Below, in pieces: positions 61 to 44,331 of a stretch of DNA of 46,614 bases. A model generated the notes under the pieces. That model saw only the letters and a program-made list of their open reading frames with translations. It did no database searches and was not told where the DNA came from. Source of the DNA: Lachnospiraceae bacterium (GTDB lineage: Bacteria > Bacillota > Clostridia > Lachnospirales > Lachnospiraceae). Each line of letters starts with the position of its first letter. Position 1 is the first letter of the stretch. A program made the translations under genes and the position numbers. Location: positions 1 to 46,614 of the forward strand of contig JAFZQY010000047.1 in assembly GCA_017620155.1 (NCBI GenBank), in the 5' to 3' direction.

Positions 61-1131
61 TTACCTGTCCTGCGGATACTTGTTGATGGCGTACGCTATA
101 CGCTTGGCAAGCAGCGCCCTGCCCTCTTCAGTCAGCTTGATGTAACCGAAATCATCTGACAGATCCACATATTGCTGATAGTTGTTCTGGTTGATAGTCC
201 CGTAGAAATTGTCCAGATACGATACGGACAGGTCCGTACAGGTATTCAACGCATTATAGAAATAGTTCGAAAGAGTTCCGTTTCCGGCGTCTTTCTGATC
301 GGGATCGTATACGATGCCGTCTATATCCTTACCCTGAGTATAGAATAGGCTTGATACAATGATTCTTACGTAAGGGTAGGTTTCCTTTAATCTTCTGATC
401 GAATAATTGAGCGAGCCGACGATCGTACATCTCTCCTCATCATCCTTGGGATTCTCAATGGCTCTTCCCTGGAAATAATCGCTCGCGTCATACATGATCA
501 CGATGACATCGAGGTTATCGTAATCTACAGCTTTCAGGACTCTTGCAGCATCCTGCGTGAAGTTACCGTCCGCATGATAGGTGTTCGTGACGCGGTCTAT
601 CTCGGAAAAATCGCCGCTGCAGATCGCATCCGTAAGATAGGTCAGCGAATAGATGTCATCGGGATAGTTCTGTTCGATCATAGCCAGGTTTCTGGTCGCA
701 AGCGTCGGATAGGGAAAAGATGCGTTATACACGGTAACGCCGGCCAGATCTGCTATCTGCTTATCCAGTCCGTTCTCATCAACTCTGGACATGGCCAAAT
801 CTCCGTTTCCGAGAAGCAGGACCGTGGTCTCATCATCAAACTGATGACCTTCATAATCCGAAGGAGACATGGGGATCAGTTCATCGAGTACTTCGATATC
901 AAATTCAGAAGTATCTTCATTAGGATCAAGCGTGATGGTCTCGCCCCTGTTCCAGCGAATGAGCTGAACAGCGGATATTCCAAGAACTACCACTATGATC
1001 GCTATCAGGATCATGTGAATGTTGATCTTAAACTTCTTCTTATCATTTTTCTTCCCGGGCTTTTCGGATAAGTCTTCCTCAGCTTCCTCGGAAATATCTA
1101 TCAGATCTAAATCATCATCAGTCTGCTTCAT
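61..1131 (-). CDS. Membrane-anchored SGNH-like protein lacking the catalytic residues
   Basis: This 356-residue protein has an acidic then basic cytoplasmic N-terminus, one membrane helix (about residues 37-58) and an extracellular domain with the SGNH-hydrolase layout. The block I region reads LLLGNGDLA (about 105-113), where a GDS motif is expected, so the nucleophile serine is replaced by glycine. Block V reads GYIKLTEEG (329-337), where DGIHLTEEG is expected, so the Asp/His pair is lost. Block III reads MYDASD rather than GxND. I therefore read it as a non-catalytic relative, perhaps a scaffold or glycan-binding partner of the neighbouring SGNH/MBOAT enzymes. A good ribosome site (CCGGAGG) precedes the ATG, and the gene follows the SGNH lipoprotein after 53 bases. 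The family assignment rests on fold-level resemblance. Confidence 0.7.
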   Translation of the reverse strand: MKQTDDDLDLIDISEEAEEDLSEKPGKKNDKKKFKINIHMILIAIIVVVLGISAVQLIRWNRGETITLDPNEDTSEFDIEVLDELIPMSPSDYEGHQFDDETTVLLLGNGDLAMSRVDENGLDKQIADLAGVTVYNASFPYPTLATRNLAMIEQNYPDDIYSLTYLTDAICSGDFSEIDRVTNTYHADGNFTQDAARVLKAVDYDNLDVIVIMYDASDYFQGRAIENPKDDEERCTIVGSLNYSIRRLKETYPYVRIIVSSLFYTQGKDIDGIVYDPDQKDAGNGTLSNYFYNALNTCTDLSVSYLDNFYGTINQNNYQQYVDLSDDFGYIKLTEEGRALLAKRIAYAINKYPQDR

Positions 1132-1184: not shown

Positions 1185-2279
1185 TCATTGTGTAATGCCT
1201 GCTTCCTCGAGCATACGCACATATTCCATTTCCTGTATCTTCTCTATCAAAATGCCCGCATATTTCGCTCTGGCTTCCTGATTGGGATGGATTCCGTCCT
1301 CGGTCATTTTTTCACAGTTATATGTATCGATTGCCATCAGGTCATACATGTTCAGGCATTCAACGCCCATCTCGGCCGCTACGCCCTGTGCGCTTCCTAT
1401 GTAGTCGAGCAGCGTTCCGAAACCGTTGTTGACACTGTGAGTGTCACCCAGGAATCTGCTTCTGTCAGCGGTCCAGAACTGCTCATAGTAAGGCGTGCAC
1501 AGGATGATCTGCGCATTGGGGTAATTCTGCTGAAGCTCGCTGATTCCCATCTTGAGTGCGGAAGAAAAGTAGAAATAGTACTGTCCGTTGATGTTTTCCG
1601 CTCCGGTAGGTATGTAGGACAGGAAATCGTTCGTTCCGTACTGGATGATGAAGTAATCAGTCTTCGAAGGATTAAGTCCGGCCATTACTTCACCGGATTT
1701 GTACCCGTCAACTATGCTCCGCGCGACCTTACCTTCCATTGCATAAACGATTCCCGTAAAGTTGGGTTCGGTCCAGGTCTCGAAATTGATGGATTTTTCT
1801 CTGGTCACGCCTGCACAGGTTCCGCCGATAGCCAGGTTATACACATCTGCTCCGAGTGTTCTTCCGACCATGTAAGCTATACCGGTCTCATCTCTGACAG
1901 AGTCAAAGATCGAATCGCCCATGAACACTATCTGGAAAGGATCGACTTCGGGGACCGCAAGCTCGGTATTACCTGTATCATCCGCAGCGGTCGCCTCAAT
2001 GGCGACTTCCTCATTCAGTGCGCTCTCGGTCATCACACTCTCGTCGGGAGCCTCTATCTCAACGGCCTCTTCCTCAGTATTTTTTGCAACAAGTTCTTCT
2101 GCTGCAATCCTGGCCTGGTGCTCCGCCTCGTATTTCTCATTCCACTCGGCTTCGGCTATAGCAAGCGCCTCAGCGACTTCATCTTCAACCGACTGGTCCG
2201 TGATACGGTATTTACATCCTGTAAGGACCGTAGCTGTAAGTGTTACTGTCATAATGACAGCGATAATCTTTTTCTTCAT
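1185..2279 (-). CDS. SGNH/GDSL-family lipoprotein hydrolase
   Basis: A 364-residue extracellular lipoprotein. It starts with a signal peptide ending in a lipobox (VLTGC, Cys22), followed by an acidic, Glu/Ala-rich linker (about 25-112) and a catalytic domain. The SGNH motifs are intact: MGDSIFDS (Ser123), YGTNDF for block III, and DGIHPN (Asp328, His331). Such enzymes remove or transfer O-linked acyl groups on surface glycans. It sits beside a degenerate SGNH-like gene, so an esterase acting on the acylated glycan made by the locus is a reasonable guess. GGAGG lies six bases before the ATG. The 107-base upstream gap is the only place in this pair for a promoter. The substrate cannot be read from the sequence. 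Confidence 0.88.
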   Translation of the reverse strand: MKKKIIAVIMTVTLTATVLTGCKYRITDQSVEDEVAEALAIAEAEWNEKYEAEHQARIAAEELVAKNTEEEAVEIEAPDESVMTESALNEEVAIEATAADDTGNTELAVPEVDPFQIVFMGDSIFDSVRDETGIAYMVGRTLGADVYNLAIGGTCAGVTREKSINFETWTEPNFTGIVYAMEGKVARSIVDGYKSGEVMAGLNPSKTDYFIIQYGTNDFLSYIPTGAENINGQYYFYFSSALKMGISELQQNYPNAQIILCTPYYEQFWTADRSRFLGDTHSVNNGFGTLLDYIGSAQGVAAEMGVECLNMYDLMAIDTYNCEKMTEDGIHPNQEARAKYAGILIEKIQEMEYVRMLEEAGITQ

Positions 2280-3449: not shown

Positions 3450-3490
3450 ATACAAAATAAAGTTTACCACATCATATAGATGCGGTAAAC
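3450..3490 (-). terminator. Rho-independent terminator of the acyl operon
   Basis: Read on the minus strand, a 12-bp stem (arms 3479-3490 and 3462-3473) with a 5-base loop is followed by a T-rich run (TTTATTTTG). One pair is G-U, so the stem is perfect as minus-strand RNA but carries an A-C mismatch as plus-strand RNA. That fixes its direction. It lies 34 bases past the stop of the last SGNH gene and marks the end of the operon that begins at the flippase. Confidence 0.85.
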
Positions 3491-3523
3491 CTTAATCGCA
3501 CAAAATCGTGTGTTGCGCCTATG

Positions 3524-4639
3524 TCAGTCGTATTGGAAAAAGTCGCCTTCTTCTATGCGGCGGTCGATCACAGGAAGGGCTGCTTCGTATTCTGCATACC
3601 ACTTTTCATACGCCGCATCCCATGACGGGTCGGAAGCCTTTTCCGCATCGGTCCTGTGGTCCGGAAGATCGTAATGACTCCTCAAATATTCACCGATGAA
3701 TACCGTACATTTCTGCGCGCCCGCGGCGTTGGTATGGATGCCGTAATCGCTGAAATCCCTTGAAAAATCAAGTCCGATCTCATCATAGTACTGATTCATG
3801 TCGAGATAATCGTATCCGGCCACTTCCACCACGTCGCGGATATGAGCAAGTTTTTCCGCATCCCCGTCTTCAAGAACGTAGGGAGTTACATAGAAAAGAA
3901 CCTGTGCATCGACATCCTTCAGAGTTTCCAGCAGATCGGCAAGCGCCTGTTCCTGATACTTATCAAGTTCCGCCGGAACCGGATCAGCGGGAACAACGGG
4001 TGCTTCCGCCGGGCCGACCTTATCGGTGATCTTATATCCCTTATACGGATCGGGCGCGGTAAAACGCCATCCCCTCCACTGCTCGGGCTTTATCAGCGAT
4101 TCCCAGTTGGAGTGGTACTTGAAGATGTCAAAGTAATACGTATATTTCTCCGTATCAACATCTGTCATGTGCGACGTTACCATGGCGTTGATCGCAGCGA
4201 TACGGTTGAACGAATACTTCATGTTATCGGTCACTTCGCGCGTATAGGCCATGTTGCTTCCAAGGCCTTCCTCTATACCCGTATACATGCGCATCTCAAA
4301 CATGTACAGTTTCGGCGACTGGGTCTTTTCAGCCTCTTTTACAAGAAATCTGCCGGCGATCGGACGCTGGACGTTGCTTCCCAACGGATAGGCTTTGATG
4401 CCGTACTCGCCGTATAACTGGGGCGTCGAGAAAAATGAGTACGAGGGGCTTGAGCCGATGATCACGATATCCAGAGAATCCTTCGGTTCTGCGTAAAATC
4501 CCATGAAGCGTGACTTCGTATCGATGCTCGGACGCAGCATGTACGTGAGCGTCGTGAGCGCGAGTACGAAGATCAACACGAACGCAAGGGCGGCTATAAG
4601 CGGGCGTATGAAGTTTTTATCTGACTTCTTATTCTTCAT
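3524..4639 (-). CDS. Membrane-anchored SGNH-like acyltransferase partner of MBOAT
   Basis: A 371-residue protein with one N-terminal membrane helix (about residues 12-36) and an extracellular SGNH-like domain. Block I reads IIGSSPSYSF (nucleophile Ser63 or Ser64), and a C-terminal DYGIHTN (Asp298, His302) supplies the likely His. Its spacing is Asp-x3-His rather than the usual Asp-x2-His. Proteins of this design (DltD-, AlgX- or PatB-like) take an acyl group exported by an MBOAT protein and put it on a glycan. The start at 4639 is chosen because its ATG overlaps the stop of the upstream MBOAT gene (TAATG), indicating coupling. An in-frame codon 87 bases upstream would lie inside the MBOAT gene without a ribosome site. 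It is the last gene before the terminator. Confidence 0.85.
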   Translation of the reverse strand: MKNKKSDKNFIRPLIAALAFVLIFVLALTTLTYMLRPSIDTKSRFMGFYAEPKDSLDIVIIGSSPSYSFFSTPQLYGEYGIKAYPLGSNVQRPIAGRFLVKEAEKTQSPKLYMFEMRMYTGIEEGLGSNMAYTREVTDNMKYSFNRIAAINAMVTSHMTDVDTEKYTYYFDIFKYHSNWESLIKPEQWRGWRFTAPDPYKGYKITDKVGPAEAPVVPADPVPAELDKYQEQALADLLETLKDVDAQVLFYVTPYVLEDGDAEKLAHIRDVVEVAGYDYLDMNQYYDEIGLDFSRDFSDYGIHTNAAGAQKCTVFIGEYLRSHYDLPDHRTDAEKASDPSWDAAYEKWYAEYEAALPVIDRRIEEGDFFQYD

Positions 4640-6258
4640 TAAAATCCCTGATAAATAAACTCTGCTGCGCTGTAGCCGGGGCCGTATTGGCCGAGGATGA
4701 TCACGTAAAAGAGCAGTGCGAACCATATGATAAAGCGAAGGACTACGGGACGGGCGGCAATGTAGGCGCGCACGTCTGTCCGCGACTTAGCGATATCCAC
4801 AAGCAGCAGGATCAGCAAGCTGAATACGAGTACAAATATATCTACATAGGCGAGTCCGAAGGAGCTTGTCGCCTTGAGAGCACGTACGCCGTCTGATGAA
4901 AAAGCATTCAGGAATCCGCGGAAGATTCCTACGACTTCAGCGTTGTGTCTGCCGAAGCCCTGCCTGAGCATTCCGAGAGCATGGCCGACCGAAGGCGATC
5001 TGAAAAACGCCATGCCAAGGCTGAACAGCAGGAAGGTCCTGATCATTCTGAGCACATTCAAAACGGCAGAATCGGGATTGATCTTCAGTGAATTCCAAAG
5101 CTTCTTAAACGGCTCCTCCAGAAGTTCTTCCATGACGATATAGAACCACTGCAGAAGTCCGGATCCGATCACGAACGTCATGCCGCCGCCGTGCCATAGG
5201 CCGATCGTCAGCCATAAAACAAACATGGCGATATAAGTTGAATAGCGCTTAGCTTTTTTCTTGGCCTTTTTTACGGCAGCTTTGCTGTCGGGATCATCGG
5301 CGGTCTTATCTGCGCCGAACATTTTCTCCAGCCTCTTGGTCAGCCGGGTATGCACGCCGGTCCTGAGCAGCGGATAGAATATATACTCCTTGCACCACGT
5401 GCCGAGCGTCATATGCCAGCGGCGCCAGAGTTCGGCTATTGTCTTTGAGAAAAACGGCGTGTCAAAGTTCTCGGGAAGCTTAAGCCCGAAACACTGTGAT
5501 ATGCCCAGAACGATATCCATCAGTCCGGAAAAATCTGCATAGAGCTGGATTGTAAAACATATGATCGCACCCCATATATACACGCCGCCAAACGCAGCGG
5601 GATTATCGAATACAGCCGCTACCGCTACGCCGAGTCTCTCAGCGATAACGAGTTTCTTAAAGAACCCCCAGAGCATCCTCTGCAGTCCGCGTGTCAGTGA
5701 CTCATAACTGAAATGATGTTCTTCGAAAAATCCTGCTCCGACTTCACGGTATTGCATGATGGGTCCGGAAACAAGAGCGGGGCCGTACATTCCGAATGTA
5801 AGAAGTCTGAAATAGTTAGTCTCGGGAATGGCAATGCCGTTATAGACATCGACCAGATAGCTGATCAATGTGAATGTGTAGTATGACAGTCCAAGAGGTA
5901 TAAGAGTCGTCAGGAACTCATTCCAGAAGACCGGATTATCGGTAAATCTAACCCATATGAATTTGGTGTATTTGAGCGATATAAGTATTGCGAGCAGGAC
6001 CACGATTCCTGCAATCAGCGCTTTACGTCTGCGCCCGGCTTCAGTCTTAACATCACAGGATACAATCCGCCTTGCACACAGATATACAACAAGCACGCTG
6101 ACGATAGGAAAAAGAACGAGGAACGGATATCCGTTCATAAGATAAAAAGCGATGCTGCTTACGAGAAGAACGCCCCACTGAAGTTTACGCGGGACGAGGT
6201 AATACACTGCCAATATGACCGCAAAAGCGCATAGAAAATAAAAGTCGGTCAGATTCAT
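4639..6258 (-). CDS. MBOAT-family membrane acyltransferase (DltB/AlgI type), first copy
   Basis: A 539-residue polytopic protein. It begins with helices typical of DltB/AlgI proteins and carries both hallmark histidines: RRWH (His282) in the amphipathic region and GLWHGG (His356), the catalytic histidine of the family. A charged cytoplasmic insertion rich in Lys/Asp (about 303-338) separates the two and is absent from the other two MBOATs of the window. The family moves an acyl group from a cytoplasmic thioester across the membrane to an external acceptor. It overlaps its SGNH partner by one base and starts seven bases after the SDR reductase stop. No clear ribosome site is seen, so coupling is likely. 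The acyl donor is inferred to be the nearby acyl carrier protein. Confidence 0.92.
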   Translation of the reverse strand: MNLTDFYFLCAFAVILAVYYLVPRKLQWGVLLVSSIAFYLMNGYPFLVLFPIVSVLVVYLCARRIVSCDVKTEAGRRRKALIAGIVVLLAILISLKYTKFIWVRFTDNPVFWNEFLTTLIPLGLSYYTFTLISYLVDVYNGIAIPETNYFRLLTFGMYGPALVSGPIMQYREVGAGFFEEHHFSYESLTRGLQRMLWGFFKKLVIAERLGVAVAAVFDNPAAFGGVYIWGAIICFTIQLYADFSGLMDIVLGISQCFGLKLPENFDTPFFSKTIAELWRRWHMTLGTWCKEYIFYPLLRTGVHTRLTKRLEKMFGADKTADDPDSKAAVKKAKKKAKRYSTYIAMFVLWLTIGLWHGGGMTFVIGSGLLQWFYIVMEELLEEPFKKLWNSLKINPDSAVLNVLRMIRTFLLFSLGMAFFRSPSVGHALGMLRQGFGRHNAEVVGIFRGFLNAFSSDGVRALKATSSFGLAYVDIFVLVFSLLILLLVDIAKSRTDVRAYIAARPVVLRFIIWFALLFYVIILGQYGPGYSAAEFIYQGF

Positions 6259-6265
6259 ATACGTA

Positions 6266-6973
6266 TCAATTTACGAGGATGTTGGTTCCGTTTGCATCCG
6301 ACCCATCGGAAAGCAGATTTATGATATGCGGTACCACTTCATCCACGGTGAGCAGTCTGCCCGAAGGGCGTGATGCTGCATACTGCTCTATGATCAGATG
6401 CGAAAGCGCCGATACATATGCAGTATCGATCATATCCGGAGACACGGCGTTAATCCGCACTCCGCTTGAAGCATACTCGGAAGCCAGACTCTTCATAAGT
6501 CCGAGCAGCGCATATTTAACGGTAACATATACGGACTGATTGGCGGGCGGATTACCTTCAGTCACTGACGAAAGGACGAATACAACGCGTCCGCTTCCTC
6601 TTTTTTTCATAACAGGCAAAAATGCCTGAAGCGGGATCACTGATGATCGAAGGGCCAGATTCATGGCCGTTTCAAACGAATCATAATCCGTCTTGGCAAA
6701 CTTCTGGATCTCATACGGAGCCATCGGGATATGCACGATATCGTCAGGCTCTCCTCCGGCGCCTATCAGAATGTCGACCATGGAATTCACTTCATCGGCA
6801 GATGAAAGATCGGCCAGAACGGGGCGTACCTTATCGCCGTACTTTTCCACAAGAGGATCAAGTTTTCCGGGCGTACGATAGTGGGCCCATATGATATCGT
6901 AACTGTCGACAACGCTTTCTATAAGGGCCCTTCCTATATCCGATGAACCACCGAGTATGAGCAATGTCTTCAT
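6266..6973 (-). CDS. SDR-family oxidoreductase, FabG-like
   Basis: A 235-residue classical short-chain dehydrogenase. The nucleotide-binding turn is GGSSDIG (8-14), the catalytic serine lies in VLSSVTEG (Ser135/136), and the YVTVK motif gives Tyr149 and Lys153. It looks closest to 3-oxoacyl-ACP reductases, which reduce a ketone on a carrier-bound acyl chain using NAD(P)H. It overlaps the dehydratase upstream by four bases (ATGA) and belongs to the same block as the carrier protein. This context argues for a carrier-bound substrate. I suggest it reduces a 2-oxo or 3-oxo acyl-ACP made by the FkbH/MaoC steps, but the substrate is not proven. Confidence 0.85.
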   Translation of the reverse strand: MKTLLILGGSSDIGRALIESVVDSYDIIWAHYRTPGKLDPLVEKYGDKVRPVLADLSSADEVNSMVDILIGAGGEPDDIVHIPMAPYEIQKFAKTDYDSFETAMNLALRSSVIPLQAFLPVMKKRGSGRVVFVLSSVTEGNPPANQSVYVTVKYALLGLMKSLASEYASSGVRINAVSPDMIDTAYVSALSHLIIEQYAASRPSGRLLTVDEVVPHIINLLSDGSDANGTNILVN

Positions 6974-7386
6974 TCAAGAACTCCTATCTGCATCTTACCG
7001 CGGCATACTTTTTCGCCATTCTGATTGCGGATTGCGATCTTCATGTCAAAAAAGCGGCCTTCGTCATTAACATCCGTCACCTCACCCGAGACAGTCAGCT
7101 CATCTCCGACCATCACCGGCTTGGGAAACTTCACTTCCACACTGCGGATCAGGCTGTTGCGGCCCGGCAAATATACTCCTGCGAGCGTCGACAGGAAAGA
7201 TGATGTCAGCATACCGTATGCGATCCTGTCATCAAAGCCATGCGCCGAGGCAAACTCGCTGTCCGTATGCATCGGATTCACATCGCCCGTGATATCCTTA
7301 AACTTCTCCATCATATCAGCGGTCACGGTTACGGTGAAGCTTTCTGTCAGTCCTTTATGTATATCTTCGAATCTGTATTCATTCAT
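6970..7386 (-). CDS. MaoC-type hot-dog dehydratase
   Basis: A small single-domain protein of 138 residues. It has the (R)-hydratase signature DVNPMH (Asp35, Asn37, His40), then the helix GMLTSSFLSTL, as in MaoC and PhaJ proteins. These enzymes add or remove water at a 3-hydroxyacyl thioester (CoA or ACP). The single-domain length is normal for the bacterial family. It lies between the carrier protein (31 bases away) and the reductase (four-base overlap), so its substrate is probably bound to that carrier. No obvious Shine-Dalgarno site precedes the ATG. In the model for this operon it would dehydrate glyceryl-ACP. Confidence 0.88.
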   Translation of the reverse strand: MNEYRFEDIHKGLTESFTVTVTADMMEKFKDITGDVNPMHTDSEFASAHGFDDRIAYGMLTSSFLSTLAGVYLPGRNSLIRSVEVKFPKPVMVGDELTVSGEVTDVNDEGRFFDMKIAIRNQNGEKVCRGKMQIGVLE

Positions 7387-7417
7387 AATGTATACGCGCC
7401 ATCATGCGATCGCGTTA

Positions 7418-7657
7418 TCAGATCATAGATTCTATAAGGTCTACCATCTCACCTACATTTTTCAGGGTGACGATCTGGCCCATGTTGAATCTCACGCCGA
7501 ACTGCTGCTCAACGGCGGCGATCAGATTGATATGCTCGAGAGAATCCCAATCCTCGATATCATCAGCAGTTGTCTCATCGCTTACTTCGATGGATTCATC
7601 ATCGAACACATCGCGGAACACTTCGTTTAGCTGTTCAAAAATCTCTTCTCTGGTCAT
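7418..7657 (-). CDS. Acyl carrier protein
   Basis: A 79-residue acidic four-helix protein with the phosphopantetheine site DWDSLEHI (Ser39). This is the DSL motif with a following Glu-His that is common in carriers paired with FkbH-like proteins. A phosphopantetheinyl transferase encoded elsewhere would activate it. It has a strong ribosome site (GGAGG, seven bases from the ATG) and overlaps the upstream SGNH gene by four bases (ATGA). Its place among FkbH, dehydratase, reductase and two MBOAT genes indicates a dedicated carrier for a surface acyl group, like DltC, rather than the housekeeping fatty acid carrier. Confidence 0.93.
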   Translation of the reverse strand: MTREEIFEQLNEVFRDVFDDESIEVSDETTADDIEDWDSLEHINLIAAVEQQFGVRFNMGQIVTLKNVGEMVDLIESMI

Positions 7658-9075
7658 TGCTCGTCCTCCTGTGTATATATTGTATCAAGTTCAACCTGAT
7701 AGTCATCGCCGATGCCGTATAAGTACAGCATACCATGTTCTTCCACCGGAATGTCGAATGATTTTTCAGGGCCGTTTTCTTTAACCACTTCTACAGGATC
7801 GTCCGTGGCTTCATCTCCGTCCGAAAGAGACCTTGCTACCACATAGGTCATGTCGTCTCTGTTGGAAGCTATCGTATAATGCTTAACGCCCGCGGCAGGA
7901 TCTCTCGTGTAGTATACCCCGAATATCTTGGGATCCTGGTCTGCCAGTTTTTCGGCGTATGTATCATAGAACTTTTCGGCGTTCTCATCAGCCGTCGAGC
8001 TTAAAACATCCCAGAGGATAGGCGTAAATACCGACGACCCGTAAGCGTTCAGGTGGCTGACATCGGCGTAATACTCTTCGTCGCGCAGATCCATCTGATC
8101 TTTTTTCAGAAGATTGAAATCGTAGTATTCGATACCGTATTTATCCGCGAGCGCACGTATATCGGATACATATGCGTCGTAATCGCCCGCGCTTATCAAC
8201 TGAAGATCGTAAATGGGGATATTAATCAGCGTCACGTCAATGCCGTTCTTTACGCAATATTCCACTGTTTTTTCAAAATAGCGCCTGCTCCGCTCGGTAT
8301 ATGATCCGCTGTCTATTTTTCCGTCGACTTCATAGACCTTGTTCACATCACCAAAGTCTCTGACCCCCTCGCTAAAGAAGCCCTTGCTGTAGACTACAGT
8401 TTCGGTGCCACCGTCTCCTGTAATTACCAGGAATTCTTTTTCATCAAGATACTCGCCGCTCTGCTTGTACGCCATGATCGCTTCGGATCTCTCCCAGTCG
8501 ATCATGTAAGCCCTGTATCTGGTAAACGGCAAAAAGCCCTCAATCAGTCTGCCGTTTCGCGAAATGTTAACCCTCATCATGAAGCGGTTTAAGGACGGTT
8601 TTATATTGTCGATCATAAGCCATGAGCCCTTAACTCGGTCATCCATATCCATGGGATCCATCGGAACATACGACCGGGATTCATCTTCCCAAACCAGATT
8701 ATTCATCTCATTGAGATAATAACAGTCAAGATATACGTGCTTGGGATCATAATCACTGCATACCTGTCTCAGCATGTAATAGGCGTCACTCCACAATAGT
8801 CCCGGACTGGACAGGTTAAAGTTAACTTCTCCGTTTATATCATCCAGGATGAAAGGATCCACTCCGTTGTGCACATGTGAAGTTCCCACGAACAGATTAT
8901 CGATATGATCCTGCTCGTAATATGAATTGGCCAGAATCCTGTACCAGTGATCCATCCACGAATCATCCTTGGGCACGAACATATAGTTTAAGCCAAGGGT
9001 CGCGACCACAAACAGTATGATCCCGCATATGATACCCGCAAGTATTTTTATGATCTGTTTTATTTTATCACTCAT
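7654..9075 (-). CDS. Membrane-anchored SGNH-like acyltransferase partner with C-terminal domain
   Basis: A 473-residue protein with one N-terminal membrane helix (about 8-30) and an extracellular catalytic domain. Block I is FVGTSHVHNG (Ser66) and block V is ADVSHLNAYG (Asp338, His341), so the catalytic set is complete. After about residue 360 it carries an extra stretch of some 110 residues, acidic and probably beta-rich, which the smaller SGNH partner of this operon lacks. The role is the same as for DltD-like proteins: accept or guide the acyl group delivered by the MBOAT and place it on the glycan. It follows the second MBOAT gene by 12 bases and overlaps the carrier protein gene, so the four are made together. 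Confidence 0.86.
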   Translation of the reverse strand: MSDKIKQIIKILAGIICGIILFVVATLGLNYMFVPKDDSWMDHWYRILANSYYEQDHIDNLFVGTSHVHNGVDPFILDDINGEVNFNLSSPGLLWSDAYYMLRQVCSDYDPKHVYLDCYYLNEMNNLVWEDESRSYVPMDPMDMDDRVKGSWLMIDNIKPSLNRFMMRVNISRNGRLIEGFLPFTRYRAYMIDWERSEAIMAYKQSGEYLDEKEFLVITGDGGTETVVYSKGFFSEGVRDFGDVNKVYEVDGKIDSGSYTERSRRYFEKTVEYCVKNGIDVTLINIPIYDLQLISAGDYDAYVSDIRALADKYGIEYYDFNLLKKDQMDLRDEEYYADVSHLNAYGSSVFTPILWDVLSSTADENAEKFYDTYAEKLADQDPKIFGVYYTRDPAAGVKHYTIASNRDDMTYVVARSLSDGDEATDDPVEVVKENGPEKSFDIPVEEHGMLYLYGIGDDYQVELDTIYTQEDEQ

Positions 9076-9087
9076 ATTTCACATCTC

Positions 9088-10566
9088 TCAGAACTGGAAA
9101 TAAATGAACTGCACAGCATCCATGTCGCTTCCGTAGTAGCCGAAAGAGAGGACGAAGAGCAAAAGCGTAACGACGGCAAACATCCTGACCCACCAGCTCT
9201 GAGCAAAAAAGCTTTCTACGACATCCTTTCCCCTGTACTTTGCCACATCCACCAGTGTGATGAGCACAACGGAGATGATCAGAATGGGAATGAAATGCTC
9301 GGAAAAGCCTATATTCTTAAGAGATCCATCAAACAGGACATACCAGTTATTAACGGAAAACAGCTGTTTCAACACGACCTTCGAATAACTGAGAGAATTC
9401 GATCTGAAAAATATAAGCGAGAACGTAAACAGAGTCATTGTGATCAGATTGGCAAACAGTTTGTTGCCGATAGTCTGAGACTTGTCTGCGATACCTAATT
9501 TTTCGGAAATGAATTTTTCAAGCTTTCTGCGATAATCTCCGATGATCTGATAAACAGCCTGAATAAAGCCCCAGATCATGAACGAGATCGCAGCGCCGTG
9601 CCAGAGGCCGCTCACCGCGAAGATTATTATCAGATTCACATACTTTCGCAGCGTTCCCTTGCGGTTGCCGCCCAAAGGGATATACAGATAATCCCTGAAC
9701 CAGGTCGAAAGAGACAGATGCCATCTGCGCCATAACTCACCTATGCTCTTCGACAGATACGGTGCCTGGAAGTTATCCATAAGCTTGATTCCCATCACAA
9801 GAGCTGCGCCTTTGGCAATGGTCGAATATCCGTAAAAATCACAATAGATCTGAAGGACGAAACCGGCAGTCGCAGCAAAAATATAAATACCGTTATATGT
9901 GTACGGATCATTATATATGGTATCCACGAACAGCGAGACACGGTCGGCTACAACGACTTTTAAGAAAAAACCGTAGAGCATGATCAGAAGTCCCCGCCTG
10001 AGATTCTCATAAGAAAATTTCTGCGGAGTCGCAAGCTGCTTTAAGAGATTCTTGCTCCTCTCGATGGGACCTGCCACCAACTGAGGAAAGAAAGATATGA
10101 AAAGGGCGTACCTTAAGATGTTATGCTCGGGATATATATCACCGCGATATACGTCGATCAGATATCCGAGCGCCTGAAGCGTAAAGAACGATATACCTAC
10201 GGGCAACAGGATATTAACTTCCCAGTTAAGGCTTTGGTGTGAAATCGCGGTGAAGATCTTGGAAGCAAACCCGACAAGCATTCCGGTGTACTTGAAATAC
10301 ACCAGTAACGACAGATTAAGGATGACCGCGATACATAGGCATACCTTGCGCGGTTTTTCCTTATCCAGACGCTCGAGGATCCTTGCTCCGAAGTAGGTGA
10401 TGAGTGTACTTGATAAAAGCAATAGTCCGTATGCCGGATTCCATTGCATGTAAAAATAATAACTCGCTGCCAGAAGCCATATATATCTGAATTTCTCGGG
10501 GATAAGAAAATATATGACAACAACTATGGGAAAGAAGATAAGAAAATCCGCAGAATTAAACAGCAT
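9088..10566 (-). CDS. MBOAT-family membrane acyltransferase (AlgI/DltB type), second copy
   Basis: A 492-residue polytopic protein starting MLFNSADF, the usual opening of AlgI-type proteins. The family signatures are present: GPIERS, RRWHLSLSTWFRDYLY (His283) and SGLWHGAA with the catalytic His323. It is closer to the third MBOAT of the window (44332-45810) than to the first: both share MLFNS at the start, an RDYLYIPLGG stretch and QFIYFQF at the end. Its start overlaps the end of the FkbH-like gene by 11 bases. The most likely donor is the acyl carrier protein of this operon and the acceptor an exported glycan. Which acyl group it moves cannot be read from the sequence. Confidence 0.93.
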   Translation of the reverse strand: MLFNSADFLIFFPIVVVIYFLIPEKFRYIWLLAASYYFYMQWNPAYGLLLLSSTLITYFGARILERLDKEKPRKVCLCIAVILNLSLLVYFKYTGMLVGFASKIFTAISHQSLNWEVNILLPVGISFFTLQALGYLIDVYRGDIYPEHNILRYALFISFFPQLVAGPIERSKNLLKQLATPQKFSYENLRRGLLIMLYGFFLKVVVADRVSLFVDTIYNDPYTYNGIYIFAATAGFVLQIYCDFYGYSTIAKGAALVMGIKLMDNFQAPYLSKSIGELWRRWHLSLSTWFRDYLYIPLGGNRKGTLRKYVNLIIIFAVSGLWHGAAISFMIWGFIQAVYQIIGDYRRKLEKFISEKLGIADKSQTIGNKLFANLITMTLFTFSLIFFRSNSLSYSKVVLKQLFSVNNWYVLFDGSLKNIGFSEHFIPILIISVVLITLVDVAKYRGKDVVESFFAQSWWVRMFAVVTLLLFVLSFGYYGSDMDAVQFIYFQF

Positions 10567-12370
10567 CGTCGTTGTCCTGCCTTATTTCTATCACCGTATT
10601 TCTCTCCTCCCACTCGTCCGAAATATCAAGGGTCCAGACCGTACTTCCCTCAGGGAGTTCTGCGGCCGGCACAGACGCTTCAAACCCCATAGTCTTATAG
10701 AATTCCTTAACCATGCCGTTCTTGGCGGTGGGATAGTAATAACCGTATAACTTATTAAGTCCTGCAGCCTTGGCCGCGTGAACTATCGCATCAAGCATCG
10801 CGCATTCCATGTCGCGTTTTAAGACTCTGCAGCTCATGAGCCACAATTCCATGTGCAGTGCCTGCTGCCCCGCGTCGATCCTGCCCATCAGGAGAGATAC
10901 GATTCCGTTGTCACCAAACTTGTCGGATAACTGTCCGTACAGAGTGATATATTCGTCGGAATCCGCATACTTTTCTATATCCGCCACTGTGCAGCGAAGA
11001 GTTGTCAGATTGAACTGATTGGATTTATTCGTAAGCTGCGAGATACGGTTATAATACAGCGGTTCAAAAGGCGCTATATGAGCGCTCATCTGAAGCCCGA
11101 GCAAGTACTCGTGATAATCCGTAAAAGCAGCCTGCATATGCGCGCGCTCCGCATTGGCGCGGTACATCTCGTTCCGCTTCTTATCATCATCGGATAAGCC
11201 GATCACTTCGAAATACCCGTTCTTGTCTATGCGTCTGATATACTCCTCAGGCTGCCCGATATCAGGCGCGGATACTCCGGGAATCTGCTCCTCTACTATC
11301 ATCCTCTCAGCGGGATTATCATCGACGAACACCATCGAATCCGGAAGGATATTGATCGCTGATGCTATGTCCTTAAAATTTAAGTCCTTCGGATCCCAGT
11401 TTGCCCGAATCTCTATGAAATCTTCGGGCGTAAGCACGGAATCGGGATGTTTGAGACCTGCGAGAGCATTCTCCTCATCGTTCTTAGAATCGACATTTAA
11501 AAGTACTCCGATGCTCTTCTGCTCCTTAAGATAGGTCTGGAACTCGGTATAGGTCTGTCCGACGGAAGTCTCCATTCCAATCTCCAGGTTCTCGGGACCG
11601 TCATCGCCGACTATGCCGCCCCAGAGCGTGTTATCCAGATCAAGCACGAGGGCCTTTTTATTTTTTCCCCAGACGGCCTTGCATATATGCGATAAGCTGA
11701 ATGCGAACTCAGGGATCGCCTGCATCGAGCACATGTATTTATACATATGCCAGAATGCTGGATCGCACCATTTATCGAGTCCGTATGACGCCGACAGATA
11801 ATTGATGTCGTGGATGTAAAAAGCTTCATGAGACTCAGCGTACGAAGCAAATTTCTCATTTAAACGGTTTACAAACCTTACGCGTCCGGATGAATCGACC
11901 GCATCGTAATTACCCATGATACGGTAAAAAGGATACTCGAAATTATTCTGAATAATGGGGCACTGATATTTTGCAGCCAGATGCTCCCACATTCCTTCAA
12001 AACGGGCATATTCTGCATCAAGGCAAGCGGACACTTCATCGGCAGCGGTGCCGGGAGCAGGAAGATTTTCGATATTCCTGTAACCCGTATGGATATAGAT
12101 CAGATCGGGCGCAAACGAGACCAGCTCCTCGGGATCGAACATCGCATCCTGATAGTACTGGGCGTATTCCGACTCATAAAACGTCGGCTCGATACCGTAG
12201 TTTAGAAGAAAGAGTTCCAGTATACGGATGAAATCATGGGTGGTCGAGCCACCGAGCACGGCAACTTTCTTACCAGTACGCGAACTCCCGTCGGCAAGCA
12301 GCTCCCTGCGTATCGCCTTGGACTTCTTAAGTATGTATTCGGGATCAAAAGGGTATTCTAATGTTTTCAT
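10556..12370 (-). CDS. FkbH-like protein (SGNH-like, HAD-IIIC and GNAT-like domains)
   Basis: A 604-residue cytoplasmic protein with the three-part layout of FkbH-like enzymes. Part one is an SGNH-like N-terminal domain (VAVLGGSTTHDF, about 36-47). Part two is a HAD-IIIC domain with LVLDLDNTLWGGIVG (Asp244, Asp246) and VFVDDNPAER. Part three is a GNAT-like C-terminal domain (about 415-580). Characterised members such as FkbH and tetronate-pathway homologues take 1,3-bisphosphoglycerate, dephosphorylate it and load a D-glyceryl unit onto an acyl carrier protein. The ATG at 12370 overlaps the upstream stop by four bases and is preferred over an in-frame codon 45 bases upstream. It sits in the same operon as a carrier protein and two MBOATs, where DltA would be in a dlt operon. 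Confidence 0.92.
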   Translation of the reverse strand: MKTLEYPFDPEYILKKSKAIRRELLADGSSRTGKKVAVLGGSTTHDFIRILELFLLNYGIEPTFYESEYAQYYQDAMFDPEELVSFAPDLIYIHTGYRNIENLPAPGTAADEVSACLDAEYARFEGMWEHLAAKYQCPIIQNNFEYPFYRIMGNYDAVDSSGRVRFVNRLNEKFASYAESHEAFYIHDINYLSASYGLDKWCDPAFWHMYKYMCSMQAIPEFAFSLSHICKAVWGKNKKALVLDLDNTLWGGIVGDDGPENLEIGMETSVGQTYTEFQTYLKEQKSIGVLLNVDSKNDEENALAGLKHPDSVLTPEDFIEIRANWDPKDLNFKDIASAINILPDSMVFVDDNPAERMIVEEQIPGVSAPDIGQPEEYIRRIDKNGYFEVIGLSDDDKKRNEMYRANAERAHMQAAFTDYHEYLLGLQMSAHIAPFEPLYYNRISQLTNKSNQFNLTTLRCTVADIEKYADSDEYITLYGQLSDKFGDNGIVSLLMGRIDAGQQALHMELWLMSCRVLKRDMECAMLDAIVHAAKAAGLNKLYGYYYPTAKNGMVKEFYKTMGFEASVPAAELPEGSTVWTLDISDEWEERNTVIEIRQDNDDAV

Positions 12371-13953
12371 GTTTTTGATTTTAGCACGATTGCAGTCACT
12401 GCCACAACCGGACATACCAAGTAAGTCACATAGAAGAATCTTGCATCTGCGCTCGTGAGCAGTAACATAGTGCCGAAGTCATATGCAAAAACCGGCAGAC
12501 ATACGATGATCTTCTTCCAATCGCTCCATTTACGCAGGTCAAAGCACGCCAGCATGAAGCTCAGCATTATCACAAGAGCAAACGCGCTCTGTCTCGTGAA
12601 GTTGTATCCGTGAAGCCTCACCAGCTTGTAGTATGTCATCAGCATAGTCGCAAGCGGCTCATGCCACTGCGTTGTGAGCCCATCTTCGTTTTCGACAATC
12701 TGTGGGCCGATAAATCCCTGATCACGGATATCCCATCCGTATACGATGTCCGTCAGCTCCAGAATGGCCTTGAACGACGGTCCGGGTGACGTGCGTATGC
12801 ATCGAAGCGACATCTTCACTATCGGCATGACACCGGTCTCTTCGATGACGTCCAGATCGAGTCCGCGCCAGTATTTCATGATGCCAAAATTACCGAGTTC
12901 ATACGACGCTTCCCACTCTTCCTGGGGCGCGATCGCATAAACGAATTCTGTTGTTTCGGCGTCTAATTTTTCCGGAGTCTGCACGGTCACGTTTCCGATG
13001 ATCGCCATAGGAAGTCCCACAGCCTGTACGACCGTCTGCGGATTCGATTCCACCTGCAAAAGCGAATAGACGGGTCCTTTAATCAGGAACATGAACACCG
13101 CAAACCACAGCACCACCTGAATCCATTTGCTGAACTTAAACACGAATATCAGAGCAAGCACGAGGAATCCCGCAAAAATGATCCCGTTATGTCTGAATAT
13201 CCCGGCAGAAGCGATCGCAAACCCAAATAACGCCGGACGCCACCATTTTCCGGCCCACTCTCCGTCCGTCAGCATGACCTTCGCAGCCATGACCATCGAG
13301 ATGGCTCCTGCGATCGCAAAAGCGATGTCCTTCAGAGGATAGAGGAGAACAAGCGCGGTATAGGGATTAAGAACGATGTAACCCCATGAGACGAGCGCAG
13401 GCAGGCGTCCCGCAAATCCATAGATCGTCACTGTCAGATAACCGATCGTAAGAGAGAAAAGAAGCATCTGCCAGAACACCACGGACCAGACCGCACCGCG
13501 GGTCAACTTTAACGGAATAGTGAAAAAGAGCAGCGTGTGCCATACGGGATGCCAGTCATTATAGTGACCCGACATGGCCTGCTCGTACTGTTCAATTGAA
13601 TCCTTAAAATACGATCCGGGAAAATATGCCCAGAGCCACAGGAGAAGTATAAAAAGACATACAAGCACGGATACGATAAAGACCTTCAGAGAAGCATCAC
13701 CGTGAAGAACAGACCCTGCCGATACGCGGTTCACCCCAAGCACGGAACCGTCCGCCCCCTGCACGCGTATCCGCGAAATAAGCCCGAGTACGGGGCCGGA
13801 GAGTAAAAACCATACAGCTGCAGCGACTACCATGATCACAGCAAGAATCAGAGGGTTTTCTGTCACGAATCCGTAGGTGAATGCGACCGTGGGAAGCAGC
13901 ATGTAGACCGCAAAGAGTATCCTGTTTATCAGAGCGGGCTTGTCCTTTTTCAT
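12367..13953 (-). CDS. Polytopic membrane protein, DUF6020-like, possible GT-C glycosyltransferase
   Basis: A 528-residue protein with about ten or more hydrophobic segments. The first external loop holds AYFPGSYFKDS (109-119) and DWHPVWHT (133-140). The acidic residue after a membrane helix and the HPxxHT motif recur in two other proteins of this window (17844-19781 and 32946-34499). I recognise the pattern as that of DUF6020-type proteins; GT-C function (using polyprenyl-phosphate sugars outside the cell) is inferred from topology. A large external loop around residues 310-420 could be the acceptor domain. It overlaps both the flippase and the FkbH-like gene by four bases, so it is made together with the acylation machinery. 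Confidence 0.72.
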   Translation of the reverse strand: MKKDKPALINRILFAVYMLLPTVAFTYGFVTENPLILAVIMVVAAAVWFLLSGPVLGLISRIRVQGADGSVLGVNRVSAGSVLHGDASLKVFIVSVLVCLFILLLWLWAYFPGSYFKDSIEQYEQAMSGHYNDWHPVWHTLLFFTIPLKLTRGAVWSVVFWQMLLFSLTIGYLTVTIYGFAGRLPALVSWGYIVLNPYTALVLLYPLKDIAFAIAGAISMVMAAKVMLTDGEWAGKWWRPALFGFAIASAGIFRHNGIIFAGFLVLALIFVFKFSKWIQVVLWFAVFMFLIKGPVYSLLQVESNPQTVVQAVGLPMAIIGNVTVQTPEKLDAETTEFVYAIAPQEEWEASYELGNFGIMKYWRGLDLDVIEETGVMPIVKMSLRCIRTSPGPSFKAILELTDIVYGWDIRDQGFIGPQIVENEDGLTTQWHEPLATMLMTYYKLVRLHGYNFTRQSAFALVIMLSFMLACFDLRKWSDWKKIIVCLPVFAYDFGTMLLLTSADARFFYVTYLVCPVVAVTAIVLKSKT

Positions 13954-42847: not shown

Positions 42848-44293
42848 CTACTCTTCGCGGCGGACATCCGTCCCCGTGAATACATCGACATACATGCTGT
42901 CTATGAGATACGAGCAGGTCTCGTCGAAGACAGCGACGCTTATACCGTTCTTATCGGGAGAAAGATCTGTAGCATCAAGCTTGATCGTGGCAAATTCGTC
43001 TCCCGCATTTCTCCAGATATTCAGATCAGAATCGTTCTCCATAGCGTAGTAAACGCTGTACTCCTCAGCTGCGGGAGTTGCGCTTACTATCTGCCCGTTT
43101 CTGACCACGAATACTCCGCCGTTTGCATAAGAAGCGGCGTCTACGCCCACTGCATTTAATCCGGGCAAAAGCAGTTCATCCCCGAGAGCATTGAAAAATC
43201 CGTTCAGAGAAATGATGTATGTGCATCCGCGTGTGTCTGCGGCAAGAGTATACAGATATGTCGCGGGATCGGGCGCGGCCTGAAGCGCATAACCGAGTTC
43301 ACGGTCTTCCATGAAGCGTGAATGCAAATCCCAGAGAGCATATGCGGGATCACCGCGTCTGTCGGTCAGATCGTAGTTTGCAAGCATGTATTCGGCGAGC
43401 GCACGGGTTACTTTGGCAGCGCCGTTATTGTTCAGGTGTGAATACTCGCGAAGATCATTCGAATAATCGATCTCACACGGAGCGTCCGCATCCATGAAAC
43501 CGATGTAAGGGTAGCCTTTTTCGGTGATGTAATCACGCACGCTGTTCTGAAGCGCTCTCTCTTCCTCGGTCGCAGAAAAAGGAGCGTTGAAGAACACCAG
43601 CTGTACGCCCGATTTATCACAGAGTTCCATGATCTTGTCCATGTAGTAGATCGCGTTTTCGGGAAGGGGCTCGCGTCTGTCGGTAACGGCCGGAGGATCG
43701 CACGCGGTCACGGCGTTATCTCCGATGTATCCGAGGCTGTATTTGGTCTCATTTACCACATCGCCGCGGGCAAGTTCAGCGTATCTCGAATGCACGATCG
43801 GCATGCGCAGGATCAGTTCCTCGACGGTCTCTCTGTCGATATCATGTCTGGATGCAAAATCAAGGATATAAGGCACGAAATAACCGTTGAAACGAGGAAC
43901 GAGCGTGCTCCTATAAAGGGTATCATCTTCCGGTTCGTCGGTACCCATGAGCGCGGTCTCAACAAGCGCGATCTTGGGCTTATTATGCCTGAAGGAATCC
44001 TTCATGTAATAGTAGGTTCCGAAGGCCTGCTGTGCGCCGGAAGAAAGGGTAAACGAAGCGATGCCCGATTCCTTCCAGAGGATCGAGTTATCAACCGTAC
44101 ATCCGGCGTGCGATGCGCCGTATACCATCACGTCGATCGGTGCATCGATGTCGTAGTAGTTGTCGTAGAGCCTGCCATGGCCGCCAAGGTCGCCGGTGTC
44201 CTTGTAGCGAAGGACATCATAGCAGACTGCCAGCATCAGACAGAGCAGAACCACGAATATGATGATTTCTATCAAGACCTTATGCTTCTTCAT
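42848..44293 (-). CDS. Membrane-anchored SGNH-like acyltransferase partner with C-terminal domain
   Basis: A 481-residue protein with one N-terminal helix (about 6-24) and an extracellular SGNH-like domain. Block I is VYGASHAGCT (Ser61). Block V is REYSHLNNNG with His286, but Glu283 stands where Asp is usual. After residue 345 there is a separate domain of about 135 residues, with LYTLAADTRGCTYIISLNG and GGVFVVRNGQIV, probably beta-rich, whose match I cannot name. It follows the third MBOAT gene after 38 bases and is surely its partner. No clear ribosome site precedes the ATG. The acyl donor for this pair is not evident, since the carrier protein is in the other operon. Confidence 0.85.
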   Translation of the reverse strand: MKKHKVLIEIIIFVVLLCLMLAVCYDVLRYKDTGDLGGHGRLYDNYYDIDAPIDVMVYGASHAGCTVDNSILWKESGIASFTLSSGAQQAFGTYYYMKDSFRHNKPKIALVETALMGTDEPEDDTLYRSTLVPRFNGYFVPYILDFASRHDIDRETVEELILRMPIVHSRYAELARGDVVNETKYSLGYIGDNAVTACDPPAVTDRREPLPENAIYYMDKIMELCDKSGVQLVFFNAPFSATEEERALQNSVRDYITEKGYPYIGFMDADAPCEIDYSNDLREYSHLNNNGAAKVTRALAEYMLANYDLTDRRGDPAYALWDLHSRFMEDRELGYALQAAPDPATYLYTLAADTRGCTYIISLNGFFNALGDELLLPGLNAVGVDAASYANGGVFVVRNGQIVSATPAAEEYSVYYAMENDSDLNIWRNAGDEFATIKLDATDLSPDKNGISVAVFDETCSYLIDSMYVDVFTGTDVRREE

Positions 44294-44331
44294 AATTTTG
44301 CGTCAAACAGAGCACCTCTGCTCCCTGGCAC

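Follow-up and report, generated by a model that had tools for sequence, protein, structure and literature searches.

We consider here an operon that may acylate an exported glycan, found in a stretch of DNA from a Lachnospiraceae bacterium (Bacillota; Clostridia; Lachnospirales; assembly GCA_017620155.1, contig JAFZQY010000047.1). The window, by which we mean the whole stretch of 46,614 nucleotides that was analysed, is contig C69 of a source assembly that totals 2.84 Mb over 125 contigs and is 88.6% complete. The operon consists of eight minus-strand genes in the order FkbH, MBOAT1, SGNH1, ACP, MaoC, SDR, MBOAT2 and SGNH2. They encode an FkbH-like protein, an acyl carrier protein (ACP), a MaoC-like dehydratase, a short-chain dehydrogenase/reductase (SDR) and two pairs of a membrane-bound O-acyltransferase (MBOAT) with an SGNH-like protein (Table 1).

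The genes are tightly packed, with no gap larger than 31 bases. FkbH and MBOAT1 overlap by 11 bases, MBOAT1 and SGNH1 lie 12 apart, SGNH1 and ACP overlap by 4, and ACP and MaoC lie 31 apart; MaoC and SDR overlap by 4, SDR and MBOAT2 lie 7 apart, and MBOAT2 and SGNH2 overlap by 1. An earlier note on this DNA had described these eight genes as an operon with nearly all members overlapping or within 31 bases, and both the coordinates and the family matches bear this out. Two start sites needed revision: the most likely start of SGNH2 is 4639, where an in-frame ATG coincides with the MBOAT2 stop, and not 4726, and that of FkbH is 12370 and not 12415, judging by the starts of its homologues. The operon is thus confirmed as an observation, and since the same gene set recurs in named loci retrieved through MaoC alone (see below), it is more than a chance arrangement.

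Table 1. Features of the operon and of its two borders.
Feature	Position	Strand	Description
FkbH-like protein, 604 aa	10556..12370	-	FkbH_N, HAD-IIIC domain and C-terminal part with invariant Cys514
MBOAT1	9088..10566	-	PLGG-type membrane acyltransferase, C-terminal FIYFQF; PF03062 102.7 bits
SGNH1	7654..9075	-	MBOAT1 partner; weak DltD match below cut-off; motifs GTSHVHNG, DVSH
Acyl carrier protein (ACP), 79 aa	7418..7657	-	PF00550 (PP-binding) 31.1 bits; predicted phosphopantetheine site Ser39 (DSL)
MaoC-like (hotdog) dehydratase	6970..7386	-	PF01575 78.3 bits; catalytic-type D35/H40
SDR reductase	6266..6973	-	PF13561 104.5 bits; Y149/K153
MBOAT2, proposed carrier-fed acyltransferase	4639..6258	-	PF03062 47.5 bits; long basic segment, PLGG absent, C-terminal FIYQGF
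SGNH2	3524..4639	-	MBOAT2 partner, GSSPS motif (GSSPSYSFF); PF13472 20.8 bits, below cut-off
Terminator-like hairpin, 16 pairs, T-rich tail	3458..3494	-	directly after SGNH2, ends the unit
528-aa membrane protein, unassigned family	12367..13953	-	directly upstream, overlaps the FkbH start by 4 bases

The putative loader and its carrier protein

The FkbH-like protein belongs to its family by score (TIGR01686, 259.2 bits against a cut-off of 146.65 in NCBIfam, with PF21211 also matched) and by its intact HAD motifs; a PDB relative is 3slr. In an alignment that combines 70 of the 73 loci described below (length 500-660 aa) with eight of nine chosen named loci, D244, D246, D350, D351 and C514 are kept in all 78 proteins and K296 in 77. 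The closest named relative that we found for the operon is in Lachnospiraceae bacterium XBB2008, whose MaoC is 91% identical and whose FkbH is 92% identical over 594 columns.

The natural comparison is with the Dlt system of teichoic acid D-alanylation (DltA-DltC-DltB-DltX-DltD), in which a dedicated carrier feeds an MBOAT and an SGNH protein. The operon shares this plan and likewise has a dedicated small carrier, the 79-aa ACP with its DSL motif; one phosphopantetheinyl transferase is encoded in the host genome. However, its loader is FkbH and not DltA, it has two acyl-modifying enzymes in addition, and a shuttle motif, FxYxxF, is fused to both MBOATs; we noticed no DltX, no search aimed at such a microprotein having been made. 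Neither MBOAT scores as a DltB equivalog (TIGR04091, 145.5 bits for MBOAT2 and 153.5 for MBOAT1, cut-off 375), nor does either SGNH protein as DltD (TIGR04092, 15.8 bits for SGNH1 with a cut-off of 150, and none listed for SGNH2).

We surveyed the order in 392 genomes, and FkbH exceeds the cut-off in 69 of them. The FkbH locus set comprises 72 fetched neighbourhoods together with the window, 73 loci with flanks of 9 kb; we set aside weak matches, frames that are fused into large proteins and several short ones of ~350-380 aa. Open reading frames were called mechanically, and some contigs stop within the flanks, so that counts of absence are upper bounds. The ACP profile also picked up AMP-binding proteins; long matches were excluded from the ACP counts in the 73 loci, and the controls were checked. 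An ACP lies within 9 kb of FkbH in 56 of the 73 loci and within 100 bp in 39. MaoC together with SDR is present in 14, a VOC (Glyoxalase_4) protein in 16, and both in one. An MBOAT without the PLGG motif occurs in 25 loci and one with PLGG in six, and GNAT, PglD and DUF4910 proteins occur in 10, seven and four. FkbH and ACP are the common unit, and MaoC with SDR and the MBOAT are two of its several partners.

The earlier note had proposed a Dlt-like system with FkbH in the place of DltA, and this linkage proved to be conserved. An AMP-binding gene is found in only three of the 73 FkbH loci (L051, L066, L090), as opposed to nine of the loci around 12 control MBOATs of the same broad type taken from outside FkbH loci, and no DltA exceeds the cut-off in the 88.6% complete host genome, where the best match reaches 103.8 of 559.85 bits. 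Thus, in this branch FkbH occupies the place that the adenylating ligase holds in the sister branch. No AMP-binding enzyme was matched in the window.

FkbH-like proteins of polyketide clusters have been described as loading a glyceryl unit from 1,3-bisphosphoglycerate onto ACPs (PMC7489565, PMC3679948), and by analogy the window FkbH would load glyceryl from the same donor on its own ACP. The tetronate and methoxymalonyl polyketide pathways resemble the operon in combining an FkbH-like protein with a free-standing ACP. According to the available parts of those two accounts, their glyceryl-ACP passes to a FabH-like enzyme or to dehydrogenases in polyketide synthesis, whereas here it is proposed to pass to MaoC, SDR and an export acyltransferase.

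It is important to ask whether the genes might instead make a small secreted metabolite or a polyketide starter and decorate no glycan at all. FkbH is classically a polyketide enzyme, and polyketide synthases or hybrids with nonribosomal peptide synthetases do occur with FkbH in the order and phylum (loci L215, L216, L217). However, no ketosynthase was matched in the 73 FkbH loci or in the 80 MaoC loci introduced below, using one query of polyketide synthase type that a ketosynthase of FabH type could escape, and the window neighbours of the operon look by sequence (without a family scan) like glycosyltransferases, a flippase and an epimerase. We regard the metabolite explanation as highly improbable.

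MaoC, SDR and other acyl-modifying partners

The residues D35, N37 and H40 are invariant in 14 of 14 aligned MaoC proteins, as are Y149 and K153 in 14 of 14 aligned SDRs. We wish to know how closely these two enzymes are tied to FkbH. A profile built from 14 MaoC proteins out of FkbH loci gives 21 matches of at least 172 bits in the 392 genomes, the next match scoring 131. All 21 genomes carry FkbH, but we have withdrawn this figure as evidence of linkage, because 14 of the 21 matches are sequences on which the profile itself was built, chosen from FkbH loci. The seven non-profile matches fall in seven of the 55 remaining FkbH genomes and in none of 323 genomes without FkbH (Fisher test, 1e-6, with relatedness not corrected for). 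For comparison, the genomes of lower-scoring MaoC matches carry FkbH in 9 of 52 cases.

An independent test came from scanning GTDB contigs with the MaoC profile and keeping the best 80 of 422 relatives; only one of these named loci (L163, from Acetivibrio ethanolgignens and identical with locus L087) had been used to build the profile. Among the 80 loci, ACP is present in 75, SDR in 39, FkbH in 35, an MBOAT2-type protein in 23 and DUF4910, which we take to be the family of Campylobacter jejuni Cj1295, in 33. The search for the same gene set that the earlier note had called for thus succeeded: FkbH, ACP, MaoC and SDR occur together in 30 of the 80 loci (29 of 79 without L163), 17 of which add an MBOAT2-type protein and 15 an SGNH label as well. 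The MBOAT2 type accompanies FkbH in 22 of its 23 occurrences, and intergenic spacing is typically a few bases. FkbH and DUF4910 are never found together among the 80. MaoC loci thus fall mainly into two kinds: FkbH-ACP-MaoC-SDR, to which MBOAT2-SGNH is often added, and DUF4910-ACP-MaoC, which lacks FkbH. A MaoC clade exclusive to FkbH operons was considered and is rejected, given the 33 loci of the second kind.

The first kind is seen in Lachnospiraceae, in other Clostridia bins, in one Bacilli bin (L186) and in one Treponema bin (L148), with the proviso that bins can be contaminated. In a phylum sample of 398 genomes, 14 of which have FkbH, two loci outside the order carry comparable sets with a much more divergent MaoC: MaoC-SDR-FkbH-ACP in L205, and FkbH-ACP-MaoC in L206, where the SDR lies 1 kb further. 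Within the order, a polyketide synthase (L215:289-10182) begins with a two-part MaoC-like region followed by FkbH, ACP and ketosynthase; the MaoC-like region matches the MaoC profile with E 1e-12 and shows a visible D-x4-H motif. Its relative L216 starts directly with FkbH. Three observations favour an action of MaoC on the FkbH product: the co-occurrence, the quartet with more distant parts, and this MaoC-like/FkbH/ACP fusion.

In the loci of the second kind, DUF4910, sometimes with an AAC3-like part, adjoins ACP and MaoC (for example L111:8596-10098 and L115:7762-10756). A SIR2-family protein stands beside DUF4910 in both of these scanned loci; a sirtuin is an unexpected find in a locus built around an acyl carrier for glycans.

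The modifying enzymes themselves seem to vary between close relatives. The loci L055 and L061 are 93-99% identical in protein along the stretch (FkbH 98.8%, MBOAT 95.4%, SGNH 92.8%), with the first and last proteins, which are cut by the stretch, at 80.0% and 63.6%. L055 has MaoC and SDR where L061 has a VOC gene, and the adjacent ACP is 86.1% identical. Because the two loci differ mainly in this exchange, the acyl-modifying cassettes look exchangeable between related loci. The MaoC+SDR label has to change 16 times on the FkbH tree, with no fewer than 14 of the changes forced by starred branches (by a quick method, and with several long branches), and the VOC label likewise switches often; we looked for an FkbH subtype specific for MaoC+SDR loci on this tree and did not find one. 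The simplest reading would be that FkbH always makes the same acyl-ACP, which the cassette then alters. VOC proteins of this family include methylmalonyl-CoA epimerases, and it is a plausible guess that VOC-type loci invert C2 of glyceryl-ACP.

These data bear on an alternative in which the system is carrier-fed but the delivered group is unreduced, being glyceroyl, with MaoC and SDR acting on another substrate, or another C3 unit such as pyruvyl or oxidised glyceryl. Loci with neither MaoC+SDR nor VOC amount to 44 of the 73, and the FkbH pathways described in the available parts of PMC7489565 and PMC3679948 oxidise glyceryl-ACP instead. On the other hand, the recurrence of MaoC and SDR with FkbH and ACP in loci retrieved via MaoC alone, the fusion in L215, and the exchange of MaoC+SDR for VOC in the otherwise near-equal L055 and L061 all speak for a role of the two enzymes on the FkbH product. 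We therefore consider an unreduced group unlikely.

Further combinations are found in the FkbH loci. L042 (2976-10225), the sole locus of the 73 to hold both MaoC+SDR and VOC, has the gene run FkbH, ACP, MaoC, VOC, SDR, second ACP, GNAT and carboxyltransferase, followed by acetate kinase. A split transketolase-like pair, assigned by Pfam for L067 and by profile elsewhere, occurs in L067:6551-8337, L079:9566-11334, L149, L161, L166, L174 (C half only), L200, L207 and L213, mostly with ACP and MaoC. This pair may attach a C2 unit to a carbonyl, or it may produce a glycolyl group. It is not a strict replacement for the SDR, an idea that we rejected, since an SDR-like protein scoring 121-135 bits, under our 150-bit label threshold, is present in four of five loci; in L200, the fifth, no SDR-like protein was seen.

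Taken together, we tentatively suggest that Lachnospiraceae possess a combinatorial acyl code on their surface glycans, a proposal that falls a little short of probable in our estimation. Such a code would consist of a glycolysis-fed FkbH+ACP loader supplying glyceryl-ACP, exchangeable cassettes (none, VOC epimerase-like, MaoC+SDR, perhaps the transketolase-like pair) that turn it into different hydroxyacyl groups, and exchangeable transferases (MBOAT-SGNH outside; GNAT, PglD or DUF4910/AAC-type inside), such that near-identical relatives would differ only in the displayed acyl group.

The two MBOAT-SGNH pairs

Since the operon contains two MBOATs, we must determine which of them is served by the carrier. 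Both end in FxYxxF, and each is followed by an SGNH-like gene (with a weak family match), as in known shuttle pairs. They differ in the segment between their His motifs, which in MBOAT2 has 70 residues, a net charge of +9 and no PLGG, and in MBOAT1 has 36 residues and contains PLGG. H282, H356 and Y536 of MBOAT2 are invariant in 15 of 15 aligned proteins.

This difference holds more widely. Among 81 MBOATs compared, 50 score at least 509 bits with the MBOAT2 profile, and 45 of the 50 end in FxYxxF. PLGG is present in none of the 44 high-scoring proteins whose inter-His segment is readable, the segment being at least 52 residues long and positively charged, and it is present in 17 of 27 readable cases among the other 31. 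The host genome has eight MBOATs, six with PLGG, one unreadable, and MBOAT2 without PLGG. DltB also lacks PLGG between its His motifs, and the MBOAT2 profile aligns to the DltB chains 6bug and 8jem; that part of DltB contacts the carrier protein.

On the MBOAT tree, MBOAT2 falls in a clade of 28 rows from FkbH loci (support 99/99), inside a clade of 40 rows (100/96) that includes the 12 control MBOATs; rows were placed in the FkbH-locus group according to locus name, L129 among them although no FkbH is visible in its 18-kb stretch, and the controls were chosen outside FkbH loci from lower-scoring profile rows, so that their place outside the 28-row clade is partly by choice. The nine control MBOATs near an AMP-binding enzyme were all confirmed by Pfam (9 of 9 candidates), and L226, L227 and L232 show none; ACP-like proteins of 74-77 aa are visible in eight of the 12 control loci, one of them tested by Pfam. 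These control sets seem to be Dlt-like sets of the same order, apparently needing no DltX. For example, L228:3694-8903, L235:4762-8070 and others of L224-L235 combine an AMP-binding enzyme, a 75-aa ACP-like protein, an MBOAT with fused FxYxxF, and SGNH.

We also searched the 392 genomes with the MBOAT2 profile, scoring only three candidates per genome, and obtained 20 matches of at least 548 bits in 19 genomes. Fifteen of these lie beside FkbH, but we have withdrawn this count as evidence, because the 15 are the profile's own rows from FkbH loci. The non-profile matches occur in four of 54 FkbH genomes and in none of 323 others (Fisher test, 4e-4, again uncorrected for relatedness).

MBOAT1, by contrast, groups with another MBOAT of the window (45810..44332, 48% identity) and apart from the FkbH-locus clade; in the XBB2008 locus (L125), no MBOAT1 lies between FkbH and ACP. 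On these grounds and that of its PLGG we rejected the treatment of both MBOATs as equal candidates. The earlier note had placed both pairs in its Dlt-like plan, and only the second seems to belong there. MBOAT2, and not MBOAT1, is likely the carrier-fed transferase, given its long basic loop, its fused FxYxxF shuttle and the relatives that stand beside either FkbH and ACP or an AMP-binding enzyme. MBOAT1 and SGNH1 are probably a separate accessory pair of acyl-CoA type. In the same glycan region of the window, 45810..42848 is a second PLGG-type MBOAT/SGNH pair, closest to MBOAT1.

Alternatively, the acyl group might be passed to an amino sugar in the cytosol, as an N-acylation before export, with the MBOAT pairs being unrelated acetyltransferases. 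The GNAT, PglD and DUF4910 genes of related FkbH loci, counted above, would suit this explanation, as would the glyceric-acid group of C. jejuni, which sits on pseudaminic acid (PMC3068675). However, the window operon has no GNAT or hexapeptide gene, MBOAT2 follows SDR after 7 bases and overlaps SGNH2 by 1, and the MBOAT2 type keeps company with FkbH in all but one of its occurrences in the named loci. We find N-acylation in the cytosol quite improbable.

The proposed pathway

The reading that we prefer, and which we hold to be moderately likely, is that the operon encodes a carrier-fed MBOAT-SGNH system that O-acylates an exported glycan, with an FkbH-like enzyme replacing the adenylating ligase of DltA type and with conversion of glyceryl to lactyl on the carrier. 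FkbH would take glycerate from 1,3-bisphosphoglycerate, dephosphorylate it and load it on the dedicated ACP, as expected from its family. MaoC would then dehydrate glyceryl-ACP by loss of its C3 hydroxyl, tautomerisation would yield pyruvyl-ACP, and SDR would reduce this to lactyl-ACP. By analogy to PatA/PatB and Dlt, MBOAT2 would shift the acyl group from ACP to its own C-terminal shuttle Tyr (FIYQGF), from which SGNH2 would hand it to the glycan outside. Related loci that replace MaoC+SDR by the VOC epimerase-like gene, or have neither, would use the same loader to display different acyl groups. Comparative genomics lends support to the architecture, the main evidence being the 80 named loci, the L215 fusion, the exchange of cassettes and those sister sets whose loader is an AMP-binding enzyme. 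We infer lactoyl as the final group on chemical grounds; the dehydration and reduction of glyceryl-ACP, which the earlier note had put forward, remain hypothetical, although they make chemical sense and match the enzymes encoded. The earlier interpretation as a whole is thus partly supported.

Among known systems, PatA/PatB O-acetylation is similar in that the MBOAT carries a C-terminal FxYxxF shuttle, which has been shown at work in PatA, and has an SGNH partner (PMC12148441). The same account, in its available part, states that MBOAT/SGNH pathways other than Dlt have no similar carrier protein and evidently use acyl-CoA; the window differs in having a dedicated ACP and loader. Acyl-CoA pairs of PatA/AlgI type have no carrier beside them, whereas here an ACP lies in the operon and in 75 of the 80 MaoC loci. 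That part of the account does not describe a carrier-fed MBOAT to which the shuttle is fused.

The locus for dimethylglyceroyl-pseudaminic acid on C. jejuni flagellin (cj1295, cj1302 fkbH) is alike in that its FkbH gene stands in a locus for a surface glycan modified with glyceric acid (PMC7099621). It differs in that the acyl group is methylated and is carried by a nonulosonic acid, and no MBOAT is mentioned in the available part of the source. In strain 12664 cj1302 is a pseudogene, and strain 12661 is without cj1301; both are without the dimethylglyceric acid sugars of strain 11168 (PMC7099621), for which cj1295 is required (PMC3068675). These accounts make the locus a precedent, of a correlative kind, for linking FkbH to decoration with glyceric acid.

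In a different setting, the loading module of bryostatin BryA is said to combine FkbH with a dehydratase and a reductase, proposed to give a lactyl starter; it differs in being a fused polyketide synthase module with a polyketide product. A literature search whose reach did not extend to subscription journals and preprints found no description of the present gene set and no paper on that lactyl starter; its one match for FkbH together with a carrier protein and an MBOAT was a paper on aeruginosins.

A number of observations weigh against the lactoyl reading. The identity of the acyl group is a prediction from the genes, and the C. jejuni link, in the available part of its source, compares two strains with many other gene differences and is correlative only. 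The family matches of SGNH1 and SGNH2 are both below the curated cut-offs (Pfam/NCBIfam), and the MaoC part of L215 reaches 23.2 bits with the Pfam MaoC model, whose cut-off is 27. In 45 of the 73 FkbH loci there is no MBOAT within 9 kb, and 44 have neither MaoC+SDR nor VOC, so FkbH-ACP serves other acceptors too. Only one of the seven non-profile MaoC matches (G387) is near FkbH, at ~11 kb; in G334, G187, G218, G266, G391 and G249 MaoC is far from FkbH or on another contig; three of these six have ACP+SDR and PglD beside it, two have DUF4910, and in one it lies on a short contig. Similarly, each of the five non-profile MBOAT2 matches comes from a genome with FkbH, yet FkbH is absent from the 9 kb around every one; an ACP is close by in three (L117, L118, L119). 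The MaoC clade is not confined to FkbH, as the 33 DUF4910-type loci without FkbH nearby demonstrate, and ten loci of this type have an AMP-binding gene, whose product may load their ACP. Finally, the best MaoC relatives in the PDB are R-specific enoyl-CoA hydratases, so that a C4 hydroxyacyl group is possible.

This last point, together with the resemblance of the SDR to FabG-type reductases and the DUF4910-type loci, leads to an alternative in which butyrate metabolism supplies the ACP, through MaoC and SDR, with 3-hydroxybutyryl or a like hydroxyacyl group, FkbH serving another step. Sugars bearing 3-hydroxybutyryl are known. However, the search for ketosynthases described above found none in the FkbH and MaoC loci, the operon has no loader besides FkbH, and the fusion in L215 places a MaoC-like part in an FkbH loading module. 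We judge the hydroxybutyryl explanation to be distinctly unlikely.

If the lactoyl reading is correct, then acylation of polymers would not be limited to acetyl-CoA or D-alanine: enzymes familiar chiefly from polyketide assembly would draw off an intermediate of core glycolysis to mark the surface of bacteria that abound in gut and rumen. A class of FkbH genes found away from polyketide clusters would thereby be explained, and a free-standing enzyme set would become available for a glyceryl-to-lactyl conversion that is hard to study in giant synthases. The system would also open a direct genetic route to the roles of lactoyl and glyceroyl groups in charge and in phage and host recognition.

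At the borders of the operon, the 528-aa membrane protein, for which Pfam and NCBIfam searches gave no match, is probably on the same transcript as FkbH. The hairpin at the other end is one of 14 matches across the region, a total not above the shuffle mean of 13.7. Two further secreted-looking proteins lie downstream of the epimerase: 1131..61, without a Pfam match, and 2279..1185, which matches GDSL lipases over the cut-off.

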